Below are positions 21,733 to 26,774 of a stretch of 34,052 nucleotides of DNA, one piece after another. The DNA lies in the NCBI GenBank assembly GCA_007376805.1, contig VMGX01000005.1, positions 1 to 34,052 on the forward strand. Direction: 5' to 3'. This DNA is from Parcubacteria group bacterium Athens0714_16. GTDB lineage: Bacteria > Patescibacteriota > Minisyncoccia > Phycocordibacterales > 21-14-all-36-13. Position 1 is the stretch's first letter. Each line of letters starts with the position of its first letter. A model generated the notes under the pieces. That model worked only from the letters and a program-made list of their open reading frames with translations. It had not been told where the DNA came from and did no database searches. The translations under genes were made by a program, and so were the position numbers.

Positions 21733-22740
21733 TCAAGAAGCTTTTAGCGTCTGCCCCAATTTGTAGGCATCACCATGAGAAAGCATTCCTAAATATGATT
21801 GCCTCATTTCTTCTTTTGAATTTTCCCTTAATTTTCTTACCATTCTTTTCTTTGTTGAAGTTCGTAACACTCGATGGTTTGAAAAATGAACCCAGCCCAA
21901 GAAATCTACACCAGAAAAAATGGTTTTAATAAAAACTTTGTTTGGATGTAAATTCAATTTTAAATTGTTTTCCAAAAAAATTTTTATTTTTTCTAAAATA
22001 TCTTCTAAAAATTTTTTATCCTGCGACAAAACAACAAAATCATCAGCATATCTTATATAATATTTTATTTTCAATTCGTGTTTTACAAACTGGTCAAATT
22101 CATTCATATAAATATTTACCAAAAGTTGCGAAGTTAAATTACCCAAAGGAAGTCCTTTTTCGATATCAGCCATGTCTGATATCGAACTTGAAGTATAAAA
22201 ACTATCTATTATATTTTCTAAAAGCCAGAGAATATTTTTATCTTGAATATGTTTCTTTAGAATTTCTTTCAAAATACTATGGTCTATATTTGCAAAAAAC
22301 TTTTTAACATCACATTTTAAAACCCAACAAGTTTTTGTATCATTTTTACTTACTTTTTTTATAAAACTCTTAAATCTATATATTGCTTTATGTGTTCCTT
22401 TTCCAACACGACAAGAATACGAATCATAAATAAATTTCTTATCAAAATATGGATATAGCATTCTATAAATTGTGTGATGTAACAATCTATCTCTTACTTC
22501 GGCTTTATGTATATCTCTGGGTTTGGGGTCATCTATCTTAAATGCTTCATAACTACCATGCTTATATGTTTTATGTAAAAGTTCGTTATGAAGTTTAATA
22601 ATATTAGTCATTAAGTTTCTTTCAAAACCTAAAACATCTTTTCGTGATTTTTTATCTTTCAAAAACTCCTTCCACGCAAGAAGAAGATTTTCAATGGAAA
22701 TGATATATTGGTATGTATGAATAAGTTGAACATGAGACAT
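21733..22740 (-). CDS. DGR reverse transcriptase
   Basis: A 335-residue reverse transcriptase. It has the catalytic Asp in LKCDVKKFF (D144), the YADD box at 231-234, and GNLTSQ at 200-205. The SQ in the last motif, where group II intron enzymes have SP, is a hallmark of DGR enzymes. There is no endonuclease or intron maturase domain and no intron RNA around it. In a DGR it copies the TR RNA with adenine-directed errors and the cDNA replaces a VR. The neighbours confirm this: an Avd-like gene, a TR 400 nt upstream and two VR-bearing genes. A 9-base G run (minus strand) 14 nt before the start codon may act as ribosome binding site. Confidence 0.95.
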   Translation of the reverse strand: MSHVQLIHTYQYIISIENLLLAWKEFLKDKKSRKDVLGFERNLMTNIIKLHNELLHKTYKHGSYEAFKIDDPKPRDIHKAEVRDRLLHHTIYRMLYPYFDKKFIYDSYSCRVGKGTHKAIYRFKSFIKKVSKNDTKTCWVLKCDVKKFFANIDHSILKEILKKHIQDKNILWLLENIIDSFYTSSSISDMADIEKGLPLGNLTSQLLVNIYMNEFDQFVKHELKIKYYIRYADDFVVLSQDKKFLEDILEKIKIFLENNLKLNLHPNKVFIKTIFSGVDFLGWVHFSNHRVLRTSTKKRMVRKLRENSKEEMRQSYLGMLSHGDAYKLGQTLKAS

Positions 22741-22762
22741 ACTAATAATTCTACCCCCCCCC

Positions 22763-22788
22763 TACTTTTGCCACTAATGGCAAAAGTA
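22763..22788. repeat. Perfect hairpin between the reverse transcriptase and avd starts
   Basis: TACTTTTGCCA (22763-22773) and TGGCAAAAGTA (22778-22788) form an 11-bp stem with the loop CTAA. The avd start codon (22777) is in the loop and stem. A run of nine C lies at 22754-22762. The hairpin would also be present in a TR-to-RT transcript. Confidence 0.7.
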
Positions 22789-23121
22789 AAAAGTTGTTAT
22801 TTAATTTGGATTACTTTTTATCAAATCTTACCAAAGCCCCATAAATATTCTTTGGGACAAAAAATAGATAATATTTTTATTGAGATTATTGAAGCAATTT
22901 CTATTGCCACTTTTTTATCTCGTGAAGAAAAACATCCATGGGTTCGGTTAGCGATACGAAAAGTGGATACTCTAAAAATACTTTTGATGGTTTTGTGGGA
23001 AACAAAATCATTGGATAATAAAAAATATATTGTTCTGTCTTTACAAATAGACGAAATAGGCAGAATGTTAGGCGGATGGAATGGACAAATTATAAAACAA
23101 AACTCTCCCACTAAAAAGTAA
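22777..23121 (+). CDS. avd: Avd-like four-helix-bundle DGR accessory protein
   Basis: Avd proteins are small basic helical bundles that bind the reverse transcriptase and TR RNA. This 114-residue product has the family signature: HKYSLGQKIDN, then LSREEKHPWVR, KVDTLKILLMVLWE, LDNKKYIVLS and IDEIGRMLGGW. I chose the ATG at 22777, which leaves the usual short N-terminus before YLIWITFYQILPKP; the frame continues upstream without family support. No Shine-Dalgarno is visible. It is on the opposite strand to the reverse transcriptase and TR, in the TR-RT spacer, whereas avd is usually collinear. Confidence 0.85.
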   Translation: MAKVKSCYLIWITFYQILPKPHKYSLGQKIDNIFIEIIEAISIATFLSREEKHPWVRLAIRKVDTLKILLMVLWETKSLDNKKYIVLSLQIDEIGRMLGGWNGQIIKQNSPTKK

Positions 23122-23138
23122 GAGAGAAATGAAGAGAT

Positions 23139-23264
23139 TTGCGAGAACCGCGGACGGGTTGTTGACATCAAAATCATTGTCAAGCCAGTTGTAATTCCAG
23201 TTCCACTTGCCACCATTCCAGTAGAGATACAGGACGTAGCGATTACCATTGGAGTTCCGTAGAA
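23139..23264 (-). repeat. DGR template repeat (TR)
   Basis: A 126-bp segment matching VR1 (23602-23727) and VR2 (26198-26323). Read on the minus strand, VR1 differs at 11 sites, all A in TR, and VR2 at 24 sites, of which 23 are A. TR codons at variable sites are mostly AAY (Asn) or TAY (Tyr), as expected of templates. The 3' end on the minus strand is a GC-rich A-free block (CCCGTCCGCGGTTCTCGC) identical in all three copies, a good candidate for the IMH-type homing site. It lies 17 bp beyond the avd stop. Confidence 0.95.
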
Positions 23265-23319
23265 ATATATAGAATGTCATCAGCCCCACCACCTCTTGAA
23301 TATTCTTAAGGTTGTATCT

Positions 23320-23494
23320 TATTTGTATCTTTTGTGATAGTAATCACCCAACACTCTATACCAAGTATCTTCATTTTTTGAAGTTTCTGCATACATCACT
23401 CTATTTGAAACTGTAGTTGCAAATACTCTCAATGTATGGATACTGGTTTCGGTAGCAGAAAACCGTAATTTTCTACATATTCACCTACTGCCAT
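23320..23494 (-). pseudogene. Degraded coding remnant upstream of TR
   Basis: On the minus strand an ATG at 23494 opens MAVGEYVENYGF and stops after 21 codons. In another frame, a protein-like stretch follows and overlaps it: KLRFSATETSIHTLRV, then FATTVSNRVMYAETSKNEDT, then WYRVLGDYYHKRYK and a stop. The two parts look like one gene broken by a frameshift. No family is recognised. It might be what remains of an earlier DGR-associated gene. Confidence 0.35.
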
Positions 23495-23508
23495 ATTTAA
23501 TTTAGCAC

Positions 23509-23543
23509 AAAAAAAAACCTCGTCCCGATAAATCGGAACGAGG
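23509..23543 (-). terminator. Terminator of DGR target 1
   Basis: On the minus strand CCTCGTTCCGA-TTTA-TCGGGACGAGG (one G-T pair) is followed by nine T. The same hairpin follows target 2. Its place downstream of the VR also matches that of DGR homing hairpins, though with a longer stem. Confidence 0.85.
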
Positions 23544-23596: not shown

Positions 23597-24241
23597 CTAA
23601 CTTGCGAGAACCGCGGACGGGTAGCTGACATCAAAATCATTGTCAAGCCAGTAGAAATCCCAGTGCCACTTGCCACCATACCAGTAGAGATACAGGACGC
23701 AGCGATTACCATAGGAGAACCGTAGAATTGTTCCATCAAAGAAAATAAAAGTTGTGTTTCCATTTGTTTTCTTTTTCCATTCTTCGGGAATAAAGTTTTG
23801 ATTTTCCCAAAGTGTTTGGAAAATTTTTGCATCCAAACGAATAACATTTTTTTCTTTTAGGCACTTGAGTTTGTCTACGCCGTTGATGGTTTTTTCATTT
23901 TTTTCTAAAGTTGTTTCAAAAACAACTTTAGTTAAATCAATTTCTGTGAGAGCAAGTGATTTTTCATCTTGCTCTTCTATTGACCATCCTGCACCAATGA
24001 ATTTTGCAGGGTCAAATGGAATAGAGCGGTCAATTTGGATTATTTTCGATCCAGAGACAATAACTTTTCCGCCACTGTTTATAAAAGTGACTAAATTTTT
24101 TAGAACAGTCTCTTCGCTTGAAAGCGAATTAATGCACGACTGGATTTTTTCTTTGTCGATAGAAGAGATTATTTCGTCGCTTCCCTTTACAAGAATTTTT
24201 CCAATAAATTCACGAAACTGACCATTAGTGGCTTTTTCCAT
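23597..24241 (-). CDS. DGR target (variable) protein 1
   Basis: A 214-residue protein with no signal peptide. The N-terminal 60 residues are helical and unlike target 2. From SGSKIIQIDRS (64) on it is closely related to target 2, including FDPAKFIGAGWSIEEQDEKS and LDAKIFQTLWENQ. Residues about 173-214 are encoded by VR1: LRFSYGNRCVLYLYW, GGKWHWDFYW, DVSYPSAVLAS. A Gly/Trp-rich variable end is typical of C-type-lectin-fold DGR targets, so ligand binding is inferred. AAGGAG precedes the ATG by 6 nt and a consensus promoter lies at 24322-24350. Confidence 0.9.
   Translation of the reverse strand: MEKATNGQFREFIGKILVKGSDEIISSIDKEKIQSCINSLSSEETVLKNLVTFINSGGKVIVSGSKIIQIDRSIPFDPAKFIGAGWSIEEQDEKSLALTEIDLTKVVFETTLEKNEKTINGVDKLKCLKEKNVIRLDAKIFQTLWENQNFIPEEWKKKTNGNTTFIFFDGTILRFSYGNRCVLYLYWYGGKWHWDFYWLDNDFDVSYPSAVLAS
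23602..23727 (-). repeat. DGR variable repeat 1 (VR1)
   Basis: The 126-bp 3' end of target 1. Compared with TR it has 11 substitutions, every one at a TR adenine. The 18-nt GC block at its 3' end is unchanged. Confidence 0.95.
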
Positions 24242-26103: not shown

Positions 26104-26137
26104 TAAAAAAACCTCGTCCCGATAAATCGGAACGAGG
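26104..26137 (-). terminator. Terminator of DGR target 2
   Basis: The same CCTCGTTCCGA/TCGGGACGAGG hairpin as after target 1, with T6 on the minus strand. The 26138-26197 segment up to the stop is also homologous to the target 1 flank. Confidence 0.85.
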
Positions 26138-26192
26138 ATAAGAACAAAAAAAACAAAGGTTCAAAAAGTTAAAAGAAGAAAAATCCCAAGTT

Positions 26193-26774
26193 CTAACTTG
26201 CGAGAACCGCGGACGGGAAGTTGACATCAAAATCACCGCCAAGCCAGTAGAAGAACCAGTACCACTCGCCACCAAGCCAGCAGAGACACAGGACGCAGCG
26301 ACGACCAAGGGAGAACCGCAGAATTGTTCCATCAAAGAAAATAAAAGTTGTGTTTCCATTTGTTTTCTTTTTCCATTCTTCGGGAATCAAGTTTTGATTT
26401 TCCCAAAGTGTTTGGAAAATTTTTGCATCCAAACGGGTAACATTTTTTTCTTTTAGGCGATTGATTTTATCTTCGCCTTTGATGGTTTTTTCTTTTTTTT
26501 CTAAAGTTGTTTCAAAAACAACTTTAGTTAAATCAACTTCTGTGAGAGCAAGTGATTTTTCATCTTGCTCTTCTATTGACCATCCTGCACCAATGAATTT
26601 TGCAGGGTCAAAGGGTTGAGAGCGGTCAATTTGGATTATTTTTTGTCCAGAAACAATTAATTCATCTCTCAAAAATTTTCTGGCGGACTCCTCTCCGCCG
26701 AGTTTTTTAACAATGGCGTTCATTTCGCCCATTGTTAGATTTTTTGAAGCAAATTTGCTTTCAGCATTTTCCAT
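26193..26774 (-). CDS. DGR target (variable) protein 2
   Basis: A 193-residue paralogue of target 1. Its N-terminal 42 residues are a different module (MGEMNAIVKKLGGEESARKF), after which VSGQKIIQIDRSQPFDPAKF matches target 1. The VR2-encoded end reads LRFSLGRRCVLCLCW, GGEWYWFFYW, DFDVNFPSAVLAS. Compared with TR many Asn codons have become Leu, Arg, Tyr, Phe or Gly, and two Tyr have become Cys in the LCLCW segment. GGAGG sits 6 nt before the ATG; the promoter is at 26934-26962 and the leader is long and structured. Confidence 0.9.
   Translation of the reverse strand: MENAESKFASKNLTMGEMNAIVKKLGGEESARKFLRDELIVSGQKIIQIDRSQPFDPAKFIGAGWSIEEQDEKSLALTEVDLTKVVFETTLEKKEKTIKGEDKINRLKEKNVTRLDAKIFQTLWENQNLIPEEWKKKTNGNTTFIFFDGTILRFSLGRRCVLCLCWLGGEWYWFFYWLGGDFDVNFPSAVLAS
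26198..26323 (-). repeat. DGR variable repeat 2 (VR2)
   Basis: The 126-bp 3' end of target 2. There are 24 differences from TR: 23 at TR adenines and one at a T (minus-strand sense). This VR has diverged about twice as far as VR1. Confidence 0.95.

Follow-up and report, generated by a model that had tools for sequence, protein, structure and literature searches.

The diversity-generating retroelement (DGR) described here probably represents a CPR-specific build with separately controlled parts, in which a free-standing template repeat (TR) RNA and the pairing of its leader would be combined with a convergent avd gene and a slipping repeat within that gene. It lies in a genome of 632 kb on contig G000:C10, the 34,052 nucleotides of which form the window analysed, and a search with its reverse transcriptase (RT) found the nearest relatives in Candidatus Nomurabacteria and other Patescibacteria. 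The locus has a DGR-type RT, which is the sole RT of its family in the genome, a TR/VR pair with adenine differences and an Avd accessory protein. All 11 differences between TR and VR1 (11/11), and 23 of the 24 between TR and VR2, fall at TR adenines, which identifies the minus strand as the TR strand. As transcribed, the minus-strand order is target gene 2 with VR2, target gene 1 with VR1, a hairpin with a T9 tract, TR and RT. Between these last two, antisense to both, the plus strand carries avd, which fills the TR-RT spacer almost entirely; its stop codon is 17 nt away from the TR 3′ end. The features of the locus are as follows.

21733-22740, minus strand: DGR reverse transcriptase, 335 aa (RVT_1, E 1e-25; phrog_1423, E 5e-113)
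22701-22709, plus strand: predicted extended -10 of avd, TGATATATT, within antisense RT codons (motif enrichment against synonymous shuffling)
22717-23121, plus strand: avd, 134 aa, MNKLNMRHTNNSTPP...NSPTKK, in frame across the C9 tract (bAvd and phrog_3206 matches, codon-position signature, translation)
22754-22762, plus strand: poly-C tract (C9) in the N-terminal codons of avd, a candidate phase-variation tract
22763-22788, no strand assigned: perfect 11-bp inverted repeat with a 4-nt loop, directly after the C tract
23093-23126, minus strand: intrinsic-terminator-like hairpin (23126-23103) and U-rich tract, overlapping in antisense the stop and last codons of avd (59/61 loci; 3/366 control windows)
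23127-23135, minus strand: post-TR segment UCUUCAUUU, predicted to pair with leader segment AAAUGAAGA (23376-23368) (own-partner duplex energy)
23139-23264, minus strand: template repeat (adenine-specific differences from VR1 and VR2)
23260-23373, minus strand: 3′ domain of the leader, model R1 (covariation against shuffles)
23265-23492, minus strand: structured, conserved 5′ leader of the TR RNA (covariation, 28 loci)
23499-23507, minus strand: predicted extended -10 of the TR RNA, TGCTAAATT, 7 nt before an invariant GG (consensus of 28 aligned leaders)
23518-23543, minus strand: hairpin and T9 after VR1, terminator of target gene 1
23597-24241, minus strand: target gene 1, with VR1 at 23602-23727
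24350-24322, minus strand: promoter of target gene 1, a perfect TTGACA-17-TATAAT
26193-26774, minus strand: target gene 2, with VR2 at 26198-26323

The system is a DGR by all tested features, and its build differs from that of BPP-1. The two have in common the RT, Avd, a TR/VR pair with adenine-specific differences and a VR at the 3′ end of the target gene. The BPP-1 record, however, runs mtd/VR1, bbp7 (at the avd position), TR and brt, all on one strand, whereas avd is antisense here, a departure that the preliminary description of this DNA had correctly recognized. When a C-type-lectin fold at the VR was looked for, neither target gene gave a Pfam match. Hairpins downstream of the VR are known from DGR targets. 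The one at 23518-23543 recurs after VR2 (about 26110-26140), so the same hairpin follows each VR; it may both terminate the gene and be the counterpart of the target hairpin of other DGRs.

That avd is a real gene on the opposite strand is supported by several lines of evidence. Its product matches PF22296 (bAvd) with an E-value of 2.4e-10, above the curated cut-off, and phrog_3206 ('Avd protein of DGR') with an E-value of 3e-14; ATG 22717 is the most likely start. The Avd frame is intact in 66 relatives, with differences of 29, 17 and 57% at codon positions 1, 2 and 3, a coding signature on the avd strand that indicates purifying selection on this frame. The overlapping minus-strand open reading frame at 22821-23249 was rejected as a gene, being without any family match. 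A second, collinear avd elsewhere, a possibility raised in the preliminary description, was not found in the genome. The only other match in the genome, a 269-aa open reading frame (L083, G000:C8:36973-37239) with an apparent helix-turn-helix C-terminus, was bAvd-like at a sub-threshold 18 bits. The gene is also predicted to have its own promoter inside the 5′ codons of the RT, where 55 of 70 loci have an extended -10 on the avd strand; from synonymous shuffling of the RT codons, 17.2 would be expected.

We surveyed related DGRs for this arrangement, as the preliminary description had proposed, and found opposite-strand avd between TR and RT at 104 of 105 assessable loci. The RT search yielded 80 related loci, in which avd lies antisense directly upstream of the RT wherever the locus reaches, and those reaching far enough have the order VR-TR-avd(antisense)-RT in common, L041 being the exception on both counts. 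Less similar RTs drawn from an even sample of 380 genomes of the phylum showed the same arrangement (L161-L193, L196 and L197). In the RT tree a single group of 116 rows (support 94) holds all 104 antisense loci together with 12 that have no avd, 11 of these cut by a contig end and the other being L041. Outside this group are the collinear avd-TR-RT cassettes of L194 and L195, from the same phylum, the second DGR of L015 and the phage DGRs. Because all antisense loci fall in one RT group, the arrangement is most simply explained by a single origin.

Three loci deserve separate mention. L041, the sole exception to the arrangement, has an RT near the clade, and neither avd, leader nor TR was found upstream of it. 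The second DGR RT of L015 (8902-10710) is distant and has a collinear avd, the start of which adjoins a G10 run. In L162 (G216:C4) an RT with antisense avd is present, and no leader or TR was found upstream; we considered G216 as a cleanly split DGR, with RT and avd in L162 and the RNA in L149, and rejected this as L149, the only leader match in that genome, has no TR after it.

The 3′ boundary of the TR transcript is predicted by a hairpin and U-tract. By our scorer a terminator-like structure stands 17-46 nt 3′ of the TR (median 34) in 59 of 61 loci, compared with 3 of 366 equal windows further downstream (Fisher p 4e-66), and the two misses, L048 and L064, have a terminator-like hairpin by eye. 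The sequence of the stem varies between loci. The stem-loop with its U-tract is kept in place and has the form of an intrinsic terminator. It usually overlaps the avd stop codon; where avd is shorter (L003, L008) it lies between the genes, which argues that its position is tied to the TR and not to avd. Since target gene 1 has a terminator-like hairpin before the TR, the TR needs a promoter of its own, and when 28 leaders were aligned by the bases at which their conservation begins, a TGnTAnAAT-like extended -10 was found at a fixed -15 to -7, of which the window's version, TGCTAAATT, is weaker than the consensus. The TR appears to form the 3′ part of a separate non-coding RNA that is short, about 400 nt, and runs from 23492 to about 23094 on the minus strand. 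A short transcript of its own for the TR had been raised earlier as the alternative reading, and it is this alternative that promoter, structured leader and terminator favour, the sequence pointing to a separate TR unit that would not cover avd.

The orphan units L146, L150 and L152, which comprise a -10-like site, leader, TR and terminator and have neither avd nor RT in the stretch examined, indicate that the RNA unit stands alone. A VR is nearby in L150 and L152, and the three units may be used in trans. Four further candidates (L144, L147, L149 and L151) were remnant-like and without a TR, and were left out of the count. In L148 (9374-9909) a second leader-TR-avd copy without an RT lies ~5 kb from a complete DGR of the same genome.

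The preliminary description had favoured a TR-spacer-RT transcript fully antisense to avd, whose pairing with avd mRNA would tie Avd supply to the level of TR. TR and RT do lie on the same strand about 400 nt apart, and we found no clear RT promoter in the 720 nt upstream, where -10-like sites are no more than modestly enriched near -240 and -120. However, a terminator directly follows the TR in nearly all loci and orphan TR units occur without an RT, and we regard a single long transcript as very unlikely. The proposed coupling fares no better: avd is convergent and has a predicted promoter of its own, so Avd supply would be uncoupled from TR RNA, and the predicted terminator after the TR points the same way. 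What survives of the long transcript is leaky read-through. Because no clear RT promoter was found, some antisense RNA from this source is possible, and expression of the RT may rely on transcription that passes the TR terminator. Most RNA would then end after the TR and a small share would continue to the RT, antisense to avd, leaving TR RNA in excess and RT scarce. Such a leaky terminator would account for the missing RT promoter and fits the same-strand placement of TR and RT about 400 nt apart, and an excess of template over enzyme is plausible, but a promoter for the RT that is weak or not of the sigma70 type, situated within antisense avd, would be equally adequate. We consider the leaky terminator a serious possibility, although one to which we give somewhat less than even weight.

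The leader of the predicted TR RNA, roughly 230 nt from promoter to TR, is conserved in both sequence and fold. Of the cells in its 3′ domain (60 loci), 96.3% are paired; the figure is 72.9% in shuffles and no more than 56% with slid partners, and both-sided changes occur in 17 of 19 pairs. The 5′ domain (28 loci) has 30 pairs, with 96.6% of cells paired and double changes in 23 of the 30, the structure having been predicted from the same alignment as was used for this count, which has no shuffle control. Single-sequence folding of the window RNA was not exceptional (z -1.49), so the case for leader structure rests on covariation. Neither leader nor TR matched Rfam 15, which gave weak matches at 25.3 kb. 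A covariance model of the 3′ domain (R1) was used in a protein-blind scan of the 380 genomes and gave 89 matches in 70 genomes, with rough E-values; 72 of the 89 have a same-strand RT downstream, 71 of them at a distance of 466-587 nt. We also compared duplex energies between leader and post-TR segment. The helix with the locus's own partner averaged -5.2 kcal/mol, against -3.17 (sd 0.22) with the partners of other loci (p 5e-5, 20,000 permutations), and the preference for the own partner was also seen in the 44 loci that lack the common sequence. The comparison shows a predicted pairing of the leader with the segment just 3′ of the TR.

What is known of DGR priming comes mainly from a single phage, with collinear avd, TR and RT, and the present system would depart from it in the position of the conserved structure. 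In BPP-1 a structured spacer 3′ of the TR primes the cDNA (PMC12875486), whereas here a predicted terminator stands about 34 nt after the TR and the conserved structure is 5′ of it. The view that the spacer after the TR is part of the RNA needed for priming, carried over from that system by the preliminary description, is probably not transferable. The hairpin after the TR might still be such a 3′ spacer structure and not a terminator, as its near-fixed distance from the TR (median 34 nt) and its covarying stem would suggest. It has, however, the full form of a terminator, with a G+C stem followed by 4 or more U, its stem varies widely in sequence and length, and the large conserved fold sits 5′ of the TR; a role in priming in place of termination is in our judgement improbable. 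The hairpin could act in both roles.

A scheme for the working of the system can be drawn from these predictions. The TR RNA would be made constantly as a short folded molecule consisting of leader, TR and intrinsic terminator, expressed from its own extended -10 promoter. Pairing between leader and post-TR segment would keep the 3′ end of the TR beside the leader, which would assume the role of the BPP-1 3′ spacer in RT/Avd binding and as the priming site. By analogy with BPP-1, RT and Avd would bind the leader and cDNA would begin at the 3′ end of the TR. Transcribed convergently from a promoter of its own on the other strand, avd would do no more than overlap the TR terminator with its stop codon, and the opposite strand would serve to separate Avd supply from TR RNA. 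Slippage of the unstable repeat in the first avd codons would switch Avd, and hypermutation with it, on and off between cells.

A repeat, lying shortly downstream of the predicted avd -10, occupies the first avd codons in many of the 120 avd loci: poly-C in 66, (CT)n in 8 and (AC)n in 5, to which (AG)n in L189 and a pentanucleotide in L183 and L191 were added by eye. The repeat unit measures 1, 2 or 5 nt and in no case 3. Of the 66 poly-C/G runs of 7 or more found in 806 kb, 58 lie no more than 120 nt from an RT start. In tract-less relatives the ATG is upstream of an LPVL/IPIF motif that elsewhere comes after the repeat, so the repeat is most likely coding. An upstream ATG is in frame with Avd in 34 of the 41 loci without a repeat but in only 23 of the 79 with one (p 2e-8), and the latter share is compatible with the one third of a random frame (p 0.48). 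We scored the repeat-bearing loci as 23 ON, 54 OFF and 2 unclear, homopolymer lengths in metagenome assemblies being error-prone and those of 2-nt repeats less so; the window copy (C9) is in frame and therefore ON. An other-frame ATG is open into the repeat in 53 of the 54 OFF loci. Given the one-third in-frame share with a repeat and 34/41 without, the simplest reading is that avd would be phase-variable by repeat slippage.

The repeat might instead be no switch at all. Read on the other strand, the C9 tract is a poly-G in the RT 5′ leader, and such tracts (poly-G, GA) could be a ribosome-binding element of the RT, with avd starting downstream at a TTG, GTG or ATG. The tract does lie 8-25 nt upstream of the RT start, an in-frame GTG or TTG that could act as a start follows it in 31 of the 54 OFF loci, and an ATG does so in the window. 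In 22 of the OFF loci, however, there is no in-frame ATG, GTG or TTG of any kind, loci without a repeat have their ATG upstream of LPVL/IPIF, and hence of the repeat site, and GT and pentanucleotide repeats are not ribosome sites. We regard this explanation as unlikely, and retain phase variation of avd. The repeat also resembles those of simple-repeat phase-variable (contingency) genes, in which a repeat with a unit other than 3 nt stands in the first codons and about one third of copies are in frame; the difference is that the gene affected here would encode a mutator element's accessory protein.

Two further observations concern the tract and its surroundings. Perfect inverted repeats of other sequence stand at the place equivalent to 22763-22788 in L008, L017, L022, L025 and L068, among others, and it may be the hairpin rather than its sequence that is kept after the C tract. 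The only other C9 runs in the genome are at G000:C7:34261-34269 and G000:C19:2431-2439, and the genes there are possible further phase-variable candidates.

In their main text, Roux et al. (2021, PMC8144416) describe a clade 2 of DGRs restricted to Patescibacteria, which the present system fits in RT kinship and host range; that main text makes no mention of Avd, strand or orientation. Antisense avd in CPR DGRs may possibly have been described earlier, for example by Paul et al. 2017 or in the large survey of Wu et al. According to Pfreundt et al. (2014), cited in PMC8867640, a Trichodesmium DGR has a TR that is strongly expressed as non-coding RNA and is in this respect like the TR predicted here, the citing account offering no link to antisense avd or to the present leader. 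Among the papers that our literature search found, none joins DGRs with phase variation of Avd.

In conclusion, this comparative analysis points to a large CPR clade in which the chemistry would be unchanged while the RNA would be built in another way and the accessory gene would stand apart, and which offers an independent test of the RNA features needed for priming. R1 is an RNA model with which template RNAs of DGRs can be searched for independently of protein genes. Metatranscriptomes and long-read metagenomes that already exist allow both the predicted RNA ends and the variation in tract length to be examined. It is an evenly balanced question, in our estimate, whether targeted hypermutation is itself phase-variable across this ultra-small bacterial phylum, such that slippage of the avd repeat would turn the mutator on in a minority of cells, beside a constitutive, self-contained template RNA whose leader would replace the 3′ priming spacer. 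This yields the concrete hypothesis that cells may limit a costly mutator by switching Avd through repeat slippage.
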